Positions 40,051 through 47,201 of a DNA stretch of 64,000 bases are shown here, piece after piece; the stretch's first letter is position 1, and each line of letters opens with the position of its first letter. This DNA comes from Nitrosospira multiformis (lineage in GTDB: Bacteria > Pseudomonadota > Gammaproteobacteria > Burkholderiales > Nitrosomonadaceae): positions 248,001 through 312,000 of the forward strand of contig NZ_FOHI01000001.1 of the NCBI RefSeq assembly GCF_900111585.1, written 5' to 3'. A model generated the notes under the pieces. That model had not been told where the DNA came from, ran no database searches, and was given only the letters and a program-made list of their open reading frames with translations. A program made the position numbers and the translations under genes.

Positions 40051-40308
40051 TCATCCCCCCTGATAAGTGTCGTATCGACTCCTGCATCGCCGGATATAAC
40101 AGGGCGCGCCCACGCCGGGCGGCGGACAGCAGAATTGCTGGCCCCGTACGCATCGACTGCAACGAAAAAAACTTCGAGAGACAGAAGTTGCCCCCTGCTG
40201 TGGGGTTATTGCCTGTCGGCTTGTGCTTCCAATCGGGCTTGTAATCGAATGGTATTGCACGGTAGTCCGGGGGAGCGCATCCCCCGCAGTAAATCCTGGC
40301 ATACTCAT
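40051..40308 (-). CDS. Cys-rich RiPP precursor-like peptide C
   Basis: An 85-residue peptide starting MSMPGFTAGDALPRTT. The ATG at 40308 is selected because GGAGG lies six bases before CAGGAA-ATG and because the MxMPGFTA start is shared with the two neighbouring peptides; the frame is open further upstream without similarity. A second shared block, AITPQ, lies at residues 33-37. The C-terminal half carries six cysteines (50, 53, 60, 61, 70, 75), including CCPPPGVGAPC, and ends YDTYQGG. The layout is that of a leader followed by a Cys-rich core. It is the most diverged and most distal of the three peptides. Confidence 0.68.
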   Translation of the reverse strand: MSMPGFTAGDALPRTTVQYHSITSPIGSTSRQAITPQQGATSVSRSFFRCSRCVRGQQFCCPPPGVGAPCYIRRCRSRYDTYQGG

Positions 40309-40416
40309 TTCCTGCCTCCGGGATTCAACAGGTTCTAATAGGGTGACAGGCGAGTACAGCAGCATTCCCTCCCCGTCAGGGAATCGCCTCCTGTGCCCTT
40401 CTGCACCCTTTTCGGC

Positions 40417-40440
40417 CACCTCCGCACGGCTGCGGAGGTG
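40417..40440 (-). other. RNA hairpin between precursor genes B and C
   Basis: CACCTCCGCA and TGCGGAGGTG form a perfect ten-base-pair stem with a four-base loop, in the 163-base gap between two precursor-like genes. No U-run follows on the minus strand. An mRNA-stabilising or attenuating structure is more likely than a terminator. Confidence 0.5.
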
Positions 40441-40471
40441 ATCACTCATCACATCAGTTCTGATAGCTTCC

Positions 40472-40708
40472 TCAAAACCTTTCACGGACAGGTCCCCATG
40501 GAAGGAAGGGGCACAAGGTCGCGTCACAGCTACAAGCTCCGGATGCAGGATTGCAATCGCAAAACAGCGTACATCCGGGCCCGAGATCTATCGTTCGCAT
40601 CATTTGCGGAATCACCGCAGTGTTATTCACGGAGCCCTGCTTACTCTTGAAATAATTCCCGGTTGTTTTGTAAACCGATGACTCCGCGGTAAATCCTGGT
40701 ATGTTCAT
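40472..40708 (-). CDS. Cys-rich RiPP precursor-like peptide B
   Basis: A 78-residue peptide starting MNIPGFTAESSVYKTTGNYF. The ATG at 40708 is preceded by AAAGGAG at ideal distance. The second leader block is AVIPQ (residues 31-35). The core region has six cysteines at 46, 50, 52, 59, 61 and 66, with CDCNPASGACSCDATLC as its centre, and ends FLPWGPVRERF. Its CDC-x6-CSC pattern matches peptide A exactly in spacing. No signal peptide is visible, so export would need a dedicated transporter or the protein acts inside the cell. Confidence 0.75.
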   Translation of the reverse strand: MNIPGFTAESSVYKTTGNYFKSKQGSVNNTAVIPQMMRTIDLGPGCTLFCDCNPASGACSCDATLCPFLPWGPVRERF

Positions 40709-40745
40709 GATGTATCTCCTTTTCAATGAGTGCAGCGATACTTCC

Positions 40746-40967
40746 CTAAAGCTCGCCCAATACCGCATGAATTGCCCGTATGGCGCCATGTTCCGATCTA
40801 CAGATACAGATGTCGGTTGCAGCATCACAGTCGCATGTCCACTCCTGCAGCTTTATACGTTGAGGGATAACTGATCCCTCTGCCCGATGCATTGGCCCGG
40901 GCAACCGCCGAGCGATAGTATTTGTGCGACGAAGCGAGGCTTCAGCAGTAAATCCTGGCATATTCAT
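40746..40967 (-). CDS. Cys-rich RiPP precursor-like peptide A
   Basis: A 73-residue peptide beginning MNMPGFTAEASLRRTN. A near-perfect ribosome-binding site (AAGGAGG, eight bases upstream) fixes the start at 40967, and the gene follows the PatG-like gene by only 22 bases. SVIPQ at residues 32-36 is the second conserved leader block. The core is TCDCDAATDICICRSEHG with cysteines 45, 47, 54 and 56, followed by a hydrophobic tail (AIRAIHAVLGEL). I remember similar MPGFTAEASL-type peptides as hypothetical proteins in other proteobacteria, but could not check this. Confidence 0.78.
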   Translation of the reverse strand: MNMPGFTAEASLRRTNTIARRLPGPMHRAEGSVIPQRIKLQEWTCDCDAATDICICRSEHGAIRAIHAVLGEL

Positions 40968-40989
40968 TTTCACACCTCCTTCTTTAAAA

Positions 40990-41943
40990 TCAACGTTCAT
41001 AGTACGGAGAGATCTTGGTGACGAGGAAAGGAAACTCCTCAGTCACATCCACGCGCACGAAGTATTTCTCGGTAAAATCGGTATTGCGGTTGGTATAGGA
41101 GAAAATGACCTCGACGATGTTGCGCCCGCTGCTCAAGGCCGAGGGACGCACCTCCACGCCCGTCAGGGAATGATCTTCCGCGAACTCTTCCGCCGCCTTG
41201 GCATAAATGGCGGGATAGCGCATGGCAAGGTAGTTCAACGCCCGATGTTCATCCGTGGCGCCTGCGTTATCGGTCATGTGCATGATCCGGTCAAACAACT
41301 CCTCGGCAGCGGAGCCAAATCGCTCCTTGGCCATTTTCTCCGGTTTCGGGATTGCCCTGATCAATTCATCTCGTCCAAAGGAGTAGATCTGGTCGAATAC
41401 CACTACCGGCACCATCAGCCCGTTACACATCTCCGGCGGAGCAATGGGACCGCGCATTCCGATGACCACATCGATATCCTGGGGAGCAGGTGCAGGCCGG
41501 ATGGCATCGATCAACATATCGACGTCGGCAGGATCACGGGGAACCAGAAGGTAGGTTTCTAGTCCCTGTACCGTCAGCACCCAGCACAGTTGCCGCACCA
41601 GATACCGGTTCTGCCGCTGGGACAGGACTTCATGGAAGGCCTGCTGATCGGTTTTGCCAGCGGTTTCCGCACGCCCGGTCGCCTGCGCAAATTCTTTTTC
41701 CACACTCAGATTAGGAAAACGCGCTTCCACTCGTCCTATGGCATAAACAAAGCCATTCATGCCGCCATTCGCATTCATGCCTTCTGTGCCGCCCGGACTT
41801 TGACTCATGCGAGTTCCGTTACAACCGCAGCCTCCTCCCATCTGGGGAGAGATCATTGCGTTCGAGGCCGAATCAGGCCTTGCCTGGATCGGTTGGCCTG
41901 TTGTGCTTTCGACTGGCTCCGCCATCATAGTTTGTTCGCTCAT
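40990..41943 (-). CDS. PatG C-terminal-like protein (cyanobactin-maturation-associated domain)
   Basis: A 317-residue protein. After a low-complexity N-terminal tail, residues from about 62 (MNGFVYAIGRVEARFPNLSV) on resemble the non-protease C-terminal domains of cyanobactin PatG-type proteins. Further segments are QNRYLVRQLCWVLTVQGLET, DIDVVIGMRGPIAPPEMCNG and HRALNYLAMRYPAIYAKAAE. The tail contains ISPQ (31-34) followed by GGGCGC, echoing the xPQ-plus-cysteine layout of the precursor peptides. The function of the PatG-type C-terminal domain is not established. AAGGGAG lies upstream of the ATG. The gene sits between the CGGC protein and the precursors. Confidence 0.8.
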   Translation of the reverse strand: MSEQTMMAEPVESTTGQPIQARPDSASNAMISPQMGGGCGCNGTRMSQSPGGTEGMNANGGMNGFVYAIGRVEARFPNLSVEKEFAQATGRAETAGKTDQQAFHEVLSQRQNRYLVRQLCWVLTVQGLETYLLVPRDPADVDMLIDAIRPAPAPQDIDVVIGMRGPIAPPEMCNGLMVPVVVFDQIYSFGRDELIRAIPKPEKMAKERFGSAAEELFDRIMHMTDNAGATDEHRALNYLAMRYPAIYAKAAEEFAEDHSLTGVEVRPSALSSGRNIVEVIFSYTNRNTDFTEKYFVRVDVTEEFPFLVTKISPYYER

Positions 41944-42032
41944 ATTGCTTCTCCCTTAACTTGATAGTGCCAACAGCGTTAAAAAGCTGAAAATCTTCTC
42001 TAAAATGACCTTCTACTTCTCTTGCCATACTT

Positions 42033-42113
42033 TTACTTCCGGCCGCGGGGTGTAAAAGCGAGCCAGCGGTTGAGCGCAGCTGCCCGCCGTTCGCAGCCTC
42101 CGCAGGGTTTCAT
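42033..42113 (-). CDS. CGGC-motif C-terminal fragment, coupled by ATGA to the preceding frame
   Basis: A 26-residue frame, MKPCGGCERRAAALNRWLAF then TPRGRK, whose ATG overlaps the TGA of the previous frame. As I recall, related small proteins carry GLGDxIKRAT and KPCGGCxxRAxxLNRW in one continuous chain, so this is probably the displaced C terminus of the gene at 42110-42322. It may arise from a -1 shift at GAATGA, from reinitiation, or from a one-base deletion. Confidence 0.6.
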   Translation of the reverse strand: MKPCGGCERRAAALNRWLAFTPRGRK

Positions 42114-42322
42114 TCGAAATAAGTGGCGGCGTGCTTGATCGCATCACCGAGCCCGATCTCCTCATCGGTAATGAAACCGGGCAGGCGCACGCGGTGAGCG
42201 GCTTGCTTGCTTGTATCTGCAACGCTTTCACGTTTAACCGGGTTTTTATCGCTTCCGTCATTTGCATTCCTTTCGCTTGCGTTCCCGCGACCCGGATTTA
42301 CGTTGATATCATTTCCAGTCAC
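42110..42322 (-). CDS. Small RiPP-cluster protein, N-terminal part (LPGF...GLGDAIK)
   Basis: A 70-residue frame starting with GTG that overlaps the protease stop (GTGA). The first 45 residues are polar and disordered. The end reads VRLPGFITDEEIGLGDAIKH, then AATYFE and stop. The LPGF segment recalls the PGF block of the precursor leaders. The continuation expected after AATYF is found in the -1 frame (42033-42113) with the KPCGGC motif. The role is unknown; a chaperone, scaffold or further substrate in the maturation of the Cys-rich peptides is conceivable. Confidence 0.68.
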   Translation of the reverse strand: MTGNDINVNPGRGNASERNANDGSDKNPVKRESVADTSKQAAHRVRLPGFITDEEIGLGDAIKHAATYFE

Positions 42323-43263
42323 GCTGTTTGCCTCCTTGTATTTACTGTGGACAGTATTTGCCAGGCCGACTCGGCATCCAGCAGGGGTGGAACCACCGAA
42401 CCCCGACGTGGGAGATGGAGCTGCATGCGGTCGCCTCCGGTTTGCCTCGTGGTTGCTTGCCGAAAGTTTTGAGGTTGGGACATGAGGGCGAGCTTGATCT
42501 GGGCTGCCGTGGCGTCAGGAAACTGCGACCACAACAGCGCAATGGCGCCGGTGACAAAAGGCACAGCGACACTTGTACCGCCCATAGTGAGGATTTGTCC
42601 CTCAGCGCCGAGGCCGGTGATGTTGTCGCCCGGCGCGCTCAAGCCGCGTGTTCCAATCGTGCTGCCGAGATTGGACTCGTTGATCGGATAGCCGCGCAAA
42701 TCGCAAGCCACAACCGGAATAACCCACGGATGGCGAGTAATGACGGAACTGCCCAGTATGCCCTGATTGCCTGCTGCAGCAGTAATCAATACACCCCGGC
42801 TGAGTGCCCGATTGAATGCTTCATCCAGCAGCTTCTCTTCCCTCGTCGAGGGCTGTGCCAGGGCCAGACTCAGGTTGATAACGCGCGCTCCCGCATTGAT
42901 GCAGTCAAAGATTGCCCCTGCCAGCTCCTGTGGAGTGGCACTAGGCATGTGCTCGCGTCCGGAGGTGCTTTCGCTGAAAATCGGGCGAATAAGGAGCGTA
43001 CAATCGGGACAAATGGCAGGCGCGGGCGAAGTGCGCCTGGCCGCGAGGATACCGGCGATGAAGGTTCCGTGCAGGCAGGCATTGCTATTGTTCCTGGTAC
43101 AGCTCGCCCCGTTATTTCCGGATATCTCCTGAAGACGTCCGTTTGTCAGATCTGCATGACTGATGGCGACAGGTCCGTCGATGAGCCCGATCCTGATATC
43201 GGAACTGCCGTGGGTACGCTCCATCAATCTGGTGAGCTTGACGAGTTCGGTAGGTTGCAACAC
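42319..43263 (-). CDS. PatA-like subtilisin (S8) maturation protease
   Basis: A 314-residue cytoplasmic S8 serine protease with no signal peptide or propeptide. The catalytic residues are Asp29 (IGLIDGPVA), His65 (LHGTFIAGILA), oxyanion Asn166 (TAAAGNQG) and Ser231 (GGTSVAVPF). The compact form and the start LQPTELVKLTRLMERTHGSS fit the PatA/PatG-type cyanobactin maturation proteases, which remove leaders from precursor peptides. It is the first gene of the minus-strand cluster and overlaps the next by GTGA. The start codon is GTG at 43263, with GGAG four to eight bases upstream. Confidence 0.88.
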   Translation of the reverse strand: MLQPTELVKLTRLMERTHGSSDIRIGLIDGPVAISHADLTNGRLQEISGNNGASCTRNNSNACLHGTFIAGILAARRTSPAPAICPDCTLLIRPIFSESTSGREHMPSATPQELAGAIFDCINAGARVINLSLALAQPSTREEKLLDEAFNRALSRGVLITAAAGNQGILGSSVITRHPWVIPVVACDLRGYPINESNLGSTIGTRGLSAPGDNITGLGAEGQILTMGGTSVAVPFVTGAIALLWSQFPDATAAQIKLALMSQPQNFRQATTRQTGGDRMQLHLPRRGSVVPPLLDAESAWQILSTVNTRRQTA

Positions 43264-43970: not shown

Positions 43971-46900
43971 TCAACTTGTCCCGGCGGGATAGAGCGCGTC
44001 TCTTCCATGGACGAGATGGTACAGCACCGGTAGTACCAGCAGTGTCAGCGCCGTGGATGAGAGAATTCCTCCAATGACCACCGTTGCCAGTGGCCGCTGC
44101 ACTTCTGCCCCTATACTTGTAGCCAGGGCCATGGGAACAAACCCGAGGGCAGCCACCAGGGCTGTCATCAATACCGGCCGCAATCTCGCGAGTGCTCCTT
44201 CCTTGATGGCATCTTCCAGCGACCGGCCTTGCGCACGCAAATCCCGTATGAACGACAGCATCACGAGGCCGTTCAGCACGGCGACACCAGACAGAGCAAT
44301 GAACCCGACCGCAGCGGAAATGGACAAGGGGATGTCCCGCAACCACAATGCCACTAAACCGCCACTGAGGGCAAAGGGAACACCGGTGAACATCAACAGC
44401 CCGTCCCGAAAATTACCGAACATGGTGTAAAGCAGCATCAGGATCAGCCCAAGCGCCAGGGGAATTGCTATTTGTAACCGCTTCGCCGCGGAAACCAGTT
44501 GCTCGAACTGCCCACCCCAGGTAAGCCAGTATCCGGAAGGAATTGGCACTTGCTTCACCACCAATGCTTCCGCTTCTTCGACAAAGGAACCAAGATCCCT
44601 CCCTCGTACATTTGCCGTAACGACAGCCCGGCGCTTGCCGTTTTCCCGGCTCACCTGGTTGGGTCCCTGGAGAACTTCGACAGTGGCAACTTCGCCGAGG
44701 GTAACGTAGGTGGTCATGCCGACAGGTGCCTGGCTTTGCGGGCCTCCGGTTGATGCCTGGCTTTGGGGGCTCCCGGTGGCTGTCTGGCTTTGCGGATTTC
44801 CGGTTGACGGTCCCTGCAGGGGAATACCGATGGGCAATCGCCTGAGTGCGTCAGGATCGGCGCGCAACTGTTCCGGGAGCCGCACCTGCAACTCGAAGCG
44901 GCGGTCGCCCTCGAAAATGGTCCCGGCGTTTTTTCCACCAATGGCAACCGCTACTGCATCCTGTATATCCGCAACATTCAATCCATAACGGGCAAGCTTT
45001 ACACGGTCAGGCTGAACGGTCAGCACCGGCAGGCCGGTAAGTTGCTCGATTTTTACATCCGCCGCGCCCGGAACAGTCTCGAGCAGATGCTCGATCTGGT
45101 CTGCCACCCGGAATAGGGTGTCCATGTCATCACCGAATACCTTTACCGCGACGTCCGCTCGCACACCGGACAGCAACTCATTGAATCGCATTTGGATGGG
45201 CTGGGTAAATTCATAATTGTTGCCCGGTACCTGGCCTACTGCCTGCTCCAGTGCAACAATAAGATCTGCCTTCGTGGAATATTGTTTCCGCCATTGTGAC
45301 TGGGGTTTCAGTATGACGAAGATGTCCGCCACGTTCGGCGGCATGGGGTCGGTTGCAATCTCGGCAGTTCCGATCTTGGTGAAAACACGCTCCACCTCGG
45401 GAAATGCCTTGATCGTCTCCTCCACTTCATGCTGCATCTCGATCGCCGTGGTCAGGCTGGTACCGGGAATGCGGATCGCGTGCAGCGCGATATCTCCCTC
45501 ATTGAGGCTGGGTACGAACTCTGTACCCATTTTTGTGGTCAGCAGGCCGCTCAATGCAACAATCACAACGGAGGTCGTGACGGTGAGGCCCTGGTTTCTC
45601 ATTACGGCGTTGAGAACCGGCAGATAGGCTTTCTTTGCCCACGCAACCACCGCATTTTCCTTTTCTCTCACCTTTCCAGTCAGGAAGAGTGCAATCGCCG
45701 CCGGGATAAACGTTATGGAAAGAATCATCGCCCCTAGCAGGGCGGTTAATACCGTATAGGCCATTGGGTGGAACATTTTCCCTTCCACTCCTGAAAGGGT
45801 GAAGACGGGAAGATAAACCACCATGATGATGAGCTCGCCATAAATGAGCACACGCCGCGCTTCCCTGGTCGCGTCGAATACCACCGCGAGACGCTCGTTC
45901 AATGAGAGTTCCCGCCCCAGCCGCCCCTGCTCATGAGCCAGCCGGCGCATGCTGTTTTCCACGATGACGATGGCGCCGTCCACGATGAGGCCGAAATCGA
46001 GTGCCCCCAGGCTCATCAGATTGGCGCTGACGCCATTGGCGACCATTCCGGTAAAAGTGAACAGCATCGAGAGGGGAATCACGAGCGAAGTGATGACGGC
46101 CGCACGCAGATTGCCAAGGAAAAGGAACAGCACGACGATGACCAGTATCGCGCCTTCAAACAGGTTGGTGGCAACCGTCCTGATCGTCTTGTCCACGAGC
46201 GTCGTCCGATCATAGACAGCAATCGCTTCGACACCTCTCGGTAGATTCCGGTTGATTTCGGCAAGTTTTTTTGCGACCGCCTGGGAAACGACACGACTGT
46301 TTTCCCCGATCAGCATGTGGGCGGTGCCGATCACAGTCTCTTGCCCATTCTGGGTCGCGGCACCCGTGCGCAATTCCCGTCCTATCAGCACATCGGCCAC
46401 GTCCTTGATGCGTATGGGTATCCCCAAGCGGGACCCAAGGGTAATATTGCCGATCTCTTCCAGGTTTGCCACCTGTCCCGGCACTCGCACCAGGTACTGT
46501 TCGCCGCTTTTCTCGATATATCCGGCGCCGACATTGAGATTATTGAGGCGCAGTGCGACGATGACGTCATTCAGTGTCAATCCGAAAGAGATCAGCTTTT
46601 GGGGGTAGGGCGCGACATGGAATTGCTTGACGAAACCTCCGACAGCGTTTATTTCCGTGACACCCGGTACCATGCGCAGCTGCGGCCGGATGATCCAATC
46701 CTGGATTTCCCGCAGGTCGGTGATGCTGTATGGCGACCCGTCAGGCTTTCGCGCATCCTTTTTTGCATTGACAGACCACATGAAAATCTCGCCCAGGCCG
46801 GTCGAGATCGGTCCCATGGTCGTTTCCACATCAATCGGTAAACGCTCTTTGGCTTCCTGCAGCCTCTGGTCGATCAACTGGCGAGCGAGGTAGATATCCG

Positions 46901-47201
46901 TGCCGTCCTCAAAAATAACCGTAACCTGCGAGAGGCCGTAGCGGGAAAGCGAGCGGGTGTACGCGAGATTGGGGAGTCCCGCCATGATCATCTCGATCGG
47001 GAACGTGACGCGTTGTTCAACCTCGATCGGGGTATACCCGGTTGCCCGTGTATTGATCTGTACCTGCACGTTGGTTATGTCGGGCACGGCGTCGATTGGG
47101 AGCTTCTGGTAACTATGGATTCCCACGGCGCCCATCGTCAGCACGGCCATCAGAACCAGGACGCGCCGCTGAATGGAGAGTTCGAGGATGCGCTCAATCA
47201 T
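43971..47201 (-). CDS. czcA: CzcA/CusA-type heavy-metal efflux RND transporter
   Basis: A 1076-residue inner-membrane proton-driven pump exporting divalent or monovalent heavy metals. It starts IERILELSIQRRVLVLMAVL and has the HAE/HME signatures AVPDITNVQVQINTRA and ALDFGLIVDGAIVIVENSMR (proton-relay aspartate). The periplasmic domain carries an unusual insert of three 9-residue repeats at about residues 798-825. The metal cannot be assigned with certainty; the LDFGLIVDGAIVIVEN segment fits the divalent-metal HME class better than the Cu/Ag class. It is the last gene of the czcI-like/czcC/czcB/czcA operon. Confidence 0.93.
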   Translation of the reverse strand: MIERILELSIQRRVLVLMAVLTMGAVGIHSYQKLPIDAVPDITNVQVQINTRATGYTPIEVEQRVTFPIEMIMAGLPNLAYTRSLSRYGLSQVTVIFEDGTDIYLARQLIDQRLQEAKERLPIDVETTMGPISTGLGEIFMWSVNAKKDARKPDGSPYSITDLREIQDWIIRPQLRMVPGVTEINAVGGFVKQFHVAPYPQKLISFGLTLNDVIVALRLNNLNVGAGYIEKSGEQYLVRVPGQVANLEEIGNITLGSRLGIPIRIKDVADVLIGRELRTGAATQNGQETVIGTAHMLIGENSRVVSQAVAKKLAEINRNLPRGVEAIAVYDRTTLVDKTIRTVATNLFEGAILVIVVLFLFLGNLRAAVITSLVIPLSMLFTFTGMVANGVSANLMSLGALDFGLIVDGAIVIVENSMRRLAHEQGRLGRELSLNERLAVVFDATREARRVLIYGELIIMVVYLPVFTLSGVEGKMFHPMAYTVLTALLGAMILSITFIPAAIALFLTGKVREKENAVVAWAKKAYLPVLNAVMRNQGLTVTTSVVIVALSGLLTTKMGTEFVPSLNEGDIALHAIRIPGTSLTTAIEMQHEVEETIKAFPEVERVFTKIGTAEIATDPMPPNVADIFVILKPQSQWRKQYSTKADLIVALEQAVGQVPGNNYEFTQPIQMRFNELLSGVRADVAVKVFGDDMDTLFRVADQIEHLLETVPGAADVKIEQLTGLPVLTVQPDRVKLARYGLNVADIQDAVAVAIGGKNAGTIFEGDRRFELQVRLPEQLRADPDALRRLPIGIPLQGPSTGNPQSQTATGSPQSQASTGGPQSQAPVGMTTYVTLGEVATVEVLQGPNQVSRENGKRRAVVTANVRGRDLGSFVEEAEALVVKQVPIPSGYWLTWGGQFEQLVSAAKRLQIAIPLALGLILMLLYTMFGNFRDGLLMFTGVPFALSGGLVALWLRDIPLSISAAVGFIALSGVAVLNGLVMLSFIRDLRAQGRSLEDAIKEGALARLRPVLMTALVAALGFVPMALATSIGAEVQRPLATVVIGGILSSTALTLLVLPVLYHLVHGRDALYPAGTS
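44728..44808 (-). repeat. Three 27-base tandem repeats inside czcA
   Basis: Three consecutive 27-base units (44728-44754, 44755-44781, 44782-44808) share the core CTGGCTTTG. On the coding strand they give three copies of a nine-residue motif of the form (S/A)TG(N/S/G)PQSQ(T/A), in frame within the periplasmic part of the pump. Confidence 0.9.

Follow-up and report, generated by a model that had tools for sequence, protein, structure and literature searches.

A split PatA-like protease and PatG-type domain set with dispersed cysteine-rich candidate precursors in Nitrosospira multiformis

Cyanobactin systems rely on a protease, PatA, whose cleavage site has the consensus G(L/V)E(A/P)S according to PMC10885120, and their clusters can hold up to ten precursor genes, as stated in PMC4663559. 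The domain of unknown function (DUF) of PatG was reported, in PMC4259220, as conserved and of a novel fold, with no role assigned to it when its structure was solved, and it bound none of the linear precursors tried there in vitro. A further precedent is given by the prochlorosins, lanthipeptides of picocyanobacteria, where one promiscuous enzyme serves many precursors (PMC10783134). Here, a gene set was analyzed in a 64,000-nucleotide stretch of the 3.2 Mb genome of Nitrosospira multiformis (positions 248,001 to 312,000 of contig NZ_FOHI01000001.1; hereafter the window). This set, encoding an S8 protease, a small CGGC protein, a stand-alone PatG-type DUF protein and Cys-rich peptides with a PGFTAE leader, is a conserved, taxonomically scattered and split relative of cyanobactin maturation, and its leader family is named by no library scanned. 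Judged from its sequences, it is probably a split PatA-like module that removes the leaders from genome-dispersed, probably disulfide-rich peptides.

Gene set and its conservation

All parts of the set lie on the minus strand of the window (43263 to 40051), in the order S8 protease, LPGF/CGGC stretch, PatG_D/PatG_C protein (hereafter the DUF protein) and three open reading frames (ORFs) beginning with M-x-[MI]-PGFTA. An earlier reading of the same DNA from its letters alone (hereafter the original prediction) had proposed a one-strand set with an S8 protease, a PatG-C-like protein and peptide ORFs, which the ORFs and Pfam confirmed. The features are as follows (aa, amino acids; pN/pS, ratio of nonsynonymous to synonymous differences per site).

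42319..43263, minus strand: PatA-like S8 (subtilisin-family) protease, 314 aa; Pfam PF00082 Peptidase_S8, E 4.6e-24; triad Asp29/His65/Ser231; nearest PDB entries 4h6v, 3zxx, 3zxy and 4h6w
42110..42322, minus strand: LPGF half of the LPGF/CGGC small protein; its GTG start overlaps the S8 stop and its frame ends before the CGGC half
42033..42113, minus strand: CGGC half (PCGGCERRAAALNRW), in another frame, from an ATG overlapping the stop of the LPGF half
40990..41943, minus strand: stand-alone PatG_D + PatG_C (cyanobactin DUF) protein, 317 aa; PF18047, 131 bits; PF18065, 126 bits; PDB 4uvq, E 6e-4
40746..40967, minus strand: candidate precursor peptide 1, 73 aa; PGFTAE leader, VIPQ site, core with CDC..CIC; pN/pS 0.23-0.42
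40472..40708, minus strand: candidate precursor peptide 2, 78 aa; PGFTAE leader, VIPQ site, core with GCTLFCDC..CSC; pN/pS 0.20-0.37
40051..40308, minus strand: possible precursor peptide 3, 85 aa; PGFTAG leader, ITPQ site, six Cys; 19.8 bits

PatG_C was found in 16 of 125 genomes of the family Nitrosomonadaceae (13 of the same genus and 3 of another), in two of a 398-genome phylum sample (the window's own and G454), and in the window's own genome alone among 399 genomes of an order sample. When the surroundings of the full-length PatG_C matches in 15 other family genomes were inspected, the S8 protease, the DUF protein and a PGFTAE peptide occurred together in all 15 loci, with order and strand kept. 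The co-occurrence of these three families across genomes, which the original prediction had proposed to look for, was therefore found; the opposite outcome, S8 and DUF genes standing alone in all relatives, was not seen, as the PGFTAE peptide adjoins them in 15/15. The CGGC protein was present in 12 of these loci, in two pieces in L033, and was not found in L041-L043. The named records whose DUF protein is 97-98% identical to that of the window are N. multiformis strains. A second PatG_C copy (L046; G105:C1:739351-739539), a fragment with neither S8 gene nor peptides beside it, is probably a relic.

Further, relatives of the set were found on plasmids. The DUF protein gave six plasmid matches, two of them weak (H5 and H6, 25-26% identity), and the CGGC protein matched (E ≤ 0.1) only 4 of 72,556 plasmid records, the same four as the top four DUF matches. 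On three of these four, from Mesorhizobium, Sinorhizobium and Streptomyces NBC_01568, genes for the S8 protease, the CGGC protein, the DUF protein and PGFTAE peptides follow one another in order. The precursors of Sinorhizobium mexicanum are followed by a gene annotated as an outer membrane protease of the omptin family (L059:9304-10455). On the fourth, a Streptomyces xanthophaeus plasmid (L061), a 46-aa Cys-rich ORF without PGFTAE leader follows the CGGC and DUF genes. Searches of phages, and of viral_contigs with six peptide patterns, turned up no relative of the DUF protein; a phage origin was rejected as far as the DUF gene was searched.

Flanking genes of 19 loci were compared with each other, not annotated by profile. 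When the ORFs of the set itself (S8, DUF, CGGC and peptides) and those antisense to them are set aside, no cluster extended beyond 6 of the 19 loci, and the clusters of 5-6 loci are Nitrosospira neighbors that resemble a shared genomic site. An efflux gene of the resistance-nodulation-division type (named by eye) lies at 43971-47201 of the window, about 700 bases upstream of the set. It was rejected as a member because, of the 19 loci, just the two close sister strains L031 and L033 contribute to its cluster.

Leader family, dispersed precursors and putative cleavage site

The leader has the Cys-poor form MN[MI]PGFTAEASLY.T...Y. A leader profile of 16 rows and 22 residues, run on the 125 family genomes, gave 58 matches in 17 of them, namely all 16 with PatG_C plus G095, and at E ≤ 0.001 nothing in the 397 other genomes of the phylum sample, where only the window's own genome matched. 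Counted from coordinates, 28 of the 58 matches lie at the gene set (cassette) and 30 elsewhere. The window genome has eight, three at the cassette and five elsewhere, one of the latter without a core (L064), so that the three precursors originally predicted were too few.

For the comparison of precursors, 50 sources (49 loci and an 8-kb stretch of the window) were searched with a local profile, which yielded 70 leader ORFs. Two were left out as too short (L064 and L040:5747), and the remaining 68 fell into 31 core families by shared 4-mers. The cores thus vary widely under one leader profile, and Cys accounts for 4 of 682 residues in the first 22 positions from the motif Pro vs. 239 of 2237 afterwards, a conserved leader with a hypervariable core, as in ribosomally synthesized and post-translationally modified peptides (RiPPs) in general. 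One core type carries CxC pairs. By eye, the PGFTA peptides have no common C-terminal follower, and those scanned had no NCBIfam or Pfam match over cut-off and were thereby placed in no known cyanobactin precursor family.

Unlinked precursors of different families mostly had different neighbor genes; the exceptions were two sites each common to two families (F25/F18 and F14/F15) and two single common genes. Different core families were seen at the same genomic site when L065, L089 and L090 were compared with L085, and L079 with L077 and L078. Since unlinked precursors of different families occupy the same sites, these data suggest that cores are replaced behind a kept leader.

The original prediction had given each of the three peptides its own ribosome-binding site. 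The PGFTA starts and a purine-rich stretch upstream of each ORF, judged by eye, agreed with this, while peptide 3 proved weakly supported, with a leader score of 19.8 bits and, in the sister strain L033, DNA past the leader that reads in a different frame; peptide 3 may be decaying. Homologues with conserved starts were found, contrary to the outcome named beforehand as fatal to the prediction. The pN/pS values were 0.23-0.42 among homologues of peptide 1 and 0.20-0.37 among those of peptide 2, with synonymous sites near saturation in several pairs. Given this purifying selection and the leader specificity, peptides 1 and 2 were rejected as chance ORFs.

A putative cleavage site was recognized before the core. 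The expression [VILM].[PA][QS] occurred in 25 of the 31 core families, vs. a mean of 4.4 and a maximum of 12 in 5000 shuffles, and [VILM].PQ in 18 of the 31 vs. a shuffle mean of 1.15, figures that are descriptive because the expression was written after the sequences had been inspected. In all but one of the 25 families the site starts 27-35 residues past the motif Pro. Some precursors carry outright PatA-like sites, namely LEPS (L038), VQPS (L035) and VTPS (L041). The [VI]-x-P-Q-type site seems to correspond to the G(L/V)E(A/P)S consensus of PatA, its last residue being mostly Gln where PatA has Ser.

Kinship of the protease, the DUF protein and the CGGC protein

Among PDB sequences, the S8 protease was closest to 4h6v, 3zxx, 3zxy and 4h6w (E 4.8e-29 to 7.8e-27), and the next subtilisin followed at 3.3e-19. 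The entry 4h6w carries the name N-terminal cyanobactin protease, and the other three are, we assume, PatA. Alignment to these cyanobactin-type proteases showed Asp29, His65 and Ser231 to be intact, as had been read from the letters. The Asp-His distance, 36 residues, is within one residue of that in 4h6v (35), so no insert is present in this stretch, which we take to be the place of the macrocyclisation insert. The protease scored 107 bits on the NCBIfam PatA model (TIGR03895; cut-off 421), and BLASTP against Gloeothece PatG gave no S8 match. It also matched the model of QhpE, presumably the subtilisin-like protease of quinohaemoprotein amine dehydrogenase assembly, but with 59 bits against a cut-off of 165. 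Five aligned cassette proteases (L042, L058-L060 and window 42319-43263) share four Cys near the catalytic His, only the last of which is kept in Gloeothece PatA and in an Acaryochloris fused protease; the four common Cys would fit a thiol control.

The DUF protein scored 131 and 126 bits on PF18047 and PF18065 (cut-offs 27 and 25.9), and thus the likeness to the PatG C terminus noted in the original prediction extends to both PatG_D and PatG_C. Its only PDB match below E 0.001 was 4uvq, from PatG (E 6e-4), and it reached 23 bits on the NCBIfam PatA model (cut-off 421). The cyanobactin DUF is therefore present, but as a separate protein: both Pfam domains are shared with the C-terminal DUF of PatG and PatA, while here the domain stands alone and is not fused to a protease. 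A GCGC stretch lies close to its N terminus. An AlphaFold2 model from four sequences had a pLDDT (predicted local distance difference test) of 36 and was not used for fold search.

In unrooted trees of the S8 and DUF sequences, the cassette members grouped together, and a long branch with full support separated them from Gloeothece PatA, the PatA-type proteases of another proteobacterial family (f51, below), Gloeothece PatG (DUF tree only) and the fused protease of Acaryochloris (S8 tree only); the branch is too long for its length to be reliable. A score threshold left Acaryo_single and f51_G454 out of the PatG_D/C tree, the S8 tree did not include Gloeothece PatG or StreptXan (no S8 at its locus), and the weak plasmid matches H5 and H6 were in neither. 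Taken together, the set resembles cyanobactin PatA systems in the nearest PDB relatives of its protease and in the logic of the putative site ([LV]-x-[AP]-S in PatA, [VI]-x-P-[QS] here), but differs in the separate DUF gene, the leader, the score (107 vs. 421 bits) and the long supported branch. The earlier description of the set as related to but distinct from PatA/PatG was borne out in this way, with 4h6w and 4uvq on the side of kinship and the sub-threshold PatA score and the branch on the other.

The LPGF/CGGC small protein, predicted as one protein overlapping the protease gene, does overlap the S8 stop but is not a single open frame in the window: the reading of the LPGF half breaks off with a stop at 42110, and only another frame yields the CGGC half. 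Profile A1 matched the two halves separately, with 54 and 53 bits. The gene is unbroken in the sister strain L012/L031 and others, and broken likewise in the sister L011/L033. The CGGC protein and the precursor leader share a PGF motif (LPGF in the former). NCBIfam gave no match for it, while Gloeothece PatB and PatC do match TIGR04220 and TIGR04447, and its identity with PatB or PatC was rejected. A hypothetical protein of the Nonlabens phages P12024S/L (H22-H25) resembles its GLGD..CGGC part (38% over 34 aa), and phrog_32048, of no assigned function, also matches it.

PatG_C was also found in 4 of 121 genomes of f51 (G454, G904, G950 and G956), within open frames of 670-688 aa.

f51, L047:6277-7264, L097:5168-5675, L098:4436-4947 and L099:4660-5637: stretches with fused PatA-type proteases and Cys-rich ORFs

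Small Cys-rich ORFs with M.[LF]P.Q..PV.R leaders lie downstream in 4/4 of these loci, and 7 of 9 hand-picked ones have a [VILM].[PA]S site (e.g., GVEPS) just before the core. The f51 systems and the Nitrosospira set both place a protease, PatA-type in the former and PatA-like in the latter, and the DUF beside Cys-rich ORFs with short leaders, but in f51 these two are one fused gene, the one scanned scoring 667 bits on TIGR03895, and the leader is not PGFTAE. That leader presumably resembles cyanobactin precursors (NCBIfam match weak, E 0.09), and f51 possibly represents a second non-cyanobacterial PatA system.

Proposed maturation and its alternatives

The scheme starts from what was observed: the order of the genes and their conservation, the specificity of the leader, the site motif, the way Cys is distributed, and the kinship to PatA and the PatG DUF. 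From these we infer the cleavage, its position, the state of the product, the roles of the DUF and CGGC proteins and any biological purpose, for which antibacterial activity, signalling or the handling of metals would be candidates. The window S8, the proposed leader peptidase, would remove the N-terminal leader by cutting after the [VI]-x-P-Q-type site about 30 residues in, the best-supported step because of the kinship and the site motif. One module would serve precursors across the whole genome, as in the prochlorosins, which likewise have many precursors per enzyme but differ in their Nif11-type leader and lanthionine synthetase, the 16 cassette genomes having no LanC-like match. The PatG_D/C protein would be a separately encoded subunit, probably docking or holding protease and precursor in trans, and the CGGC protein may dock via PGF where the leader docks, its CxxC being able to act on thiols or metal; that the two are partners holding the precursor or its thiols is speculative.

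The released Cys-rich cores would probably end as disulfide-rich or otherwise Cys-dependent peptides, and no macrocycle or azole is expected. YcaO matched in 0/16 cassette genomes of the family vs. 5/14 control genomes, and LanC-like proteins in 0/16 vs. 1/14, with no search aimed at radical SAM (S-adenosylmethionine), MNIO (multinuclear non-heme iron oxidase) or other classes. YcaO heterocyclisation and LanC lanthionine formation were rejected on these counts. The window genome has one PatG_C match and the set a single S8 gene, i.e., no second protease of the PatG kind with a macrocyclisation insert. Because there is one PatG_C match and neither YcaO nor LanC, linear, probably disulfide-linked cores would be expected.

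Several results weigh against this leader-removal module. The S. xanthophaeus plasmid locus (L061, 5421-7172) has the CGGC and DUF genes but no S8 gene or leader peptide, and G095 has a leader peptide without PatG_C. Six of the 31 core families, the Streptomyces peptide among them, lack the site motif, whose counts are descriptive, as said. For the window S8, the NCBIfam mycosin model outranks the PatA model (128 vs. 107 bits, mycosin cut-off 279), and NCBIfam ranks the two likewise for the Mesorhizobium S8. Among the neighbors, which were compared mutually and not annotated, no transporter was identified. The lack of binding of linear precursors by the PatG DUF in vitro, reported in PMC4259220, speaks against a simple docking role. 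Finally, since its CGGC gene is broken, the window copy of the set may be partly inactive.

Alternatively, PGFTAE could be a protease-docking or inhibitory segment, the peptides staying attached as regulators, decoys or metal carriers, and the S8 would not be a leader peptidase. The related LPGF segment in the CGGC protein, the CxC pairs of one core type and the lack of any further gene common to the loci are consistent with this, but leader and site are kept while cores differ widely, Cys is almost absent from the leader, and the closest PDB sequences to the S8 are leader peptidases, which makes this explanation unlikely. In another scheme, as in a conventional RiPP pathway, a further unlinked enzyme would modify the cores and the set would carry out the final cleavage only. 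The unlinked precursors lie among genes that differ by family, so the set would have to act in trans in any case and another enzyme could do so too; we consider this improbable, as the two enzyme classes covered by the search, YcaO and LanC-like, gave no match in any of the 16 cassette genomes. True cyanobactin-type maturation, in which the module would also macrocyclise or heterocyclise the cores to cyclic modified peptides, shares with this set the PatA-like protease and PatG DUF that are cyanobactin hallmarks, and the many precursor genes mentioned above, but is very unlikely given YcaO in 0/16 cassette genomes vs. 5/14 controls, a single PatG_C match and no second S8 gene, no insert between Asp and His (36 vs. 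35 residues, at the presumed insert position), no common C-terminal follower by eye, and a CGGC protein that is neither PatB nor PatC. By the tests made, the set is not a cyanobactin cluster, but its action probably resembles that of the PatA step.

Since the DUF occurs here unfused, next to a PatA-like protease and in genomes that gave no YcaO match, its contribution becomes testable by addition in trans. Many precursors lie far from the set, and cluster-based mining is likely to miss them; leader and site together make it possible to trace Cys-rich peptides in large numbers among ammonia oxidisers, rhizobia and Streptomyces. The original suggestion that the system is possibly undescribed agrees with the open-access literature, where, among the matches listed, no title or abstract start described it and the term PGFTAE gave none. 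More tentatively, these systems may form a new class acting in trans, in which a protease-DUF-CGGC module matures a dispersed, disulfide-rich library whose cores can be exchanged; the DUF would then be a subunit of its own in which Cys-rich precursors fold or dock. If true, the cyanobactins would represent a single specialised offshoot of a wider PatA-DUF maturation superfamily, which also occurs in Proteobacteria and Actinomycetota.

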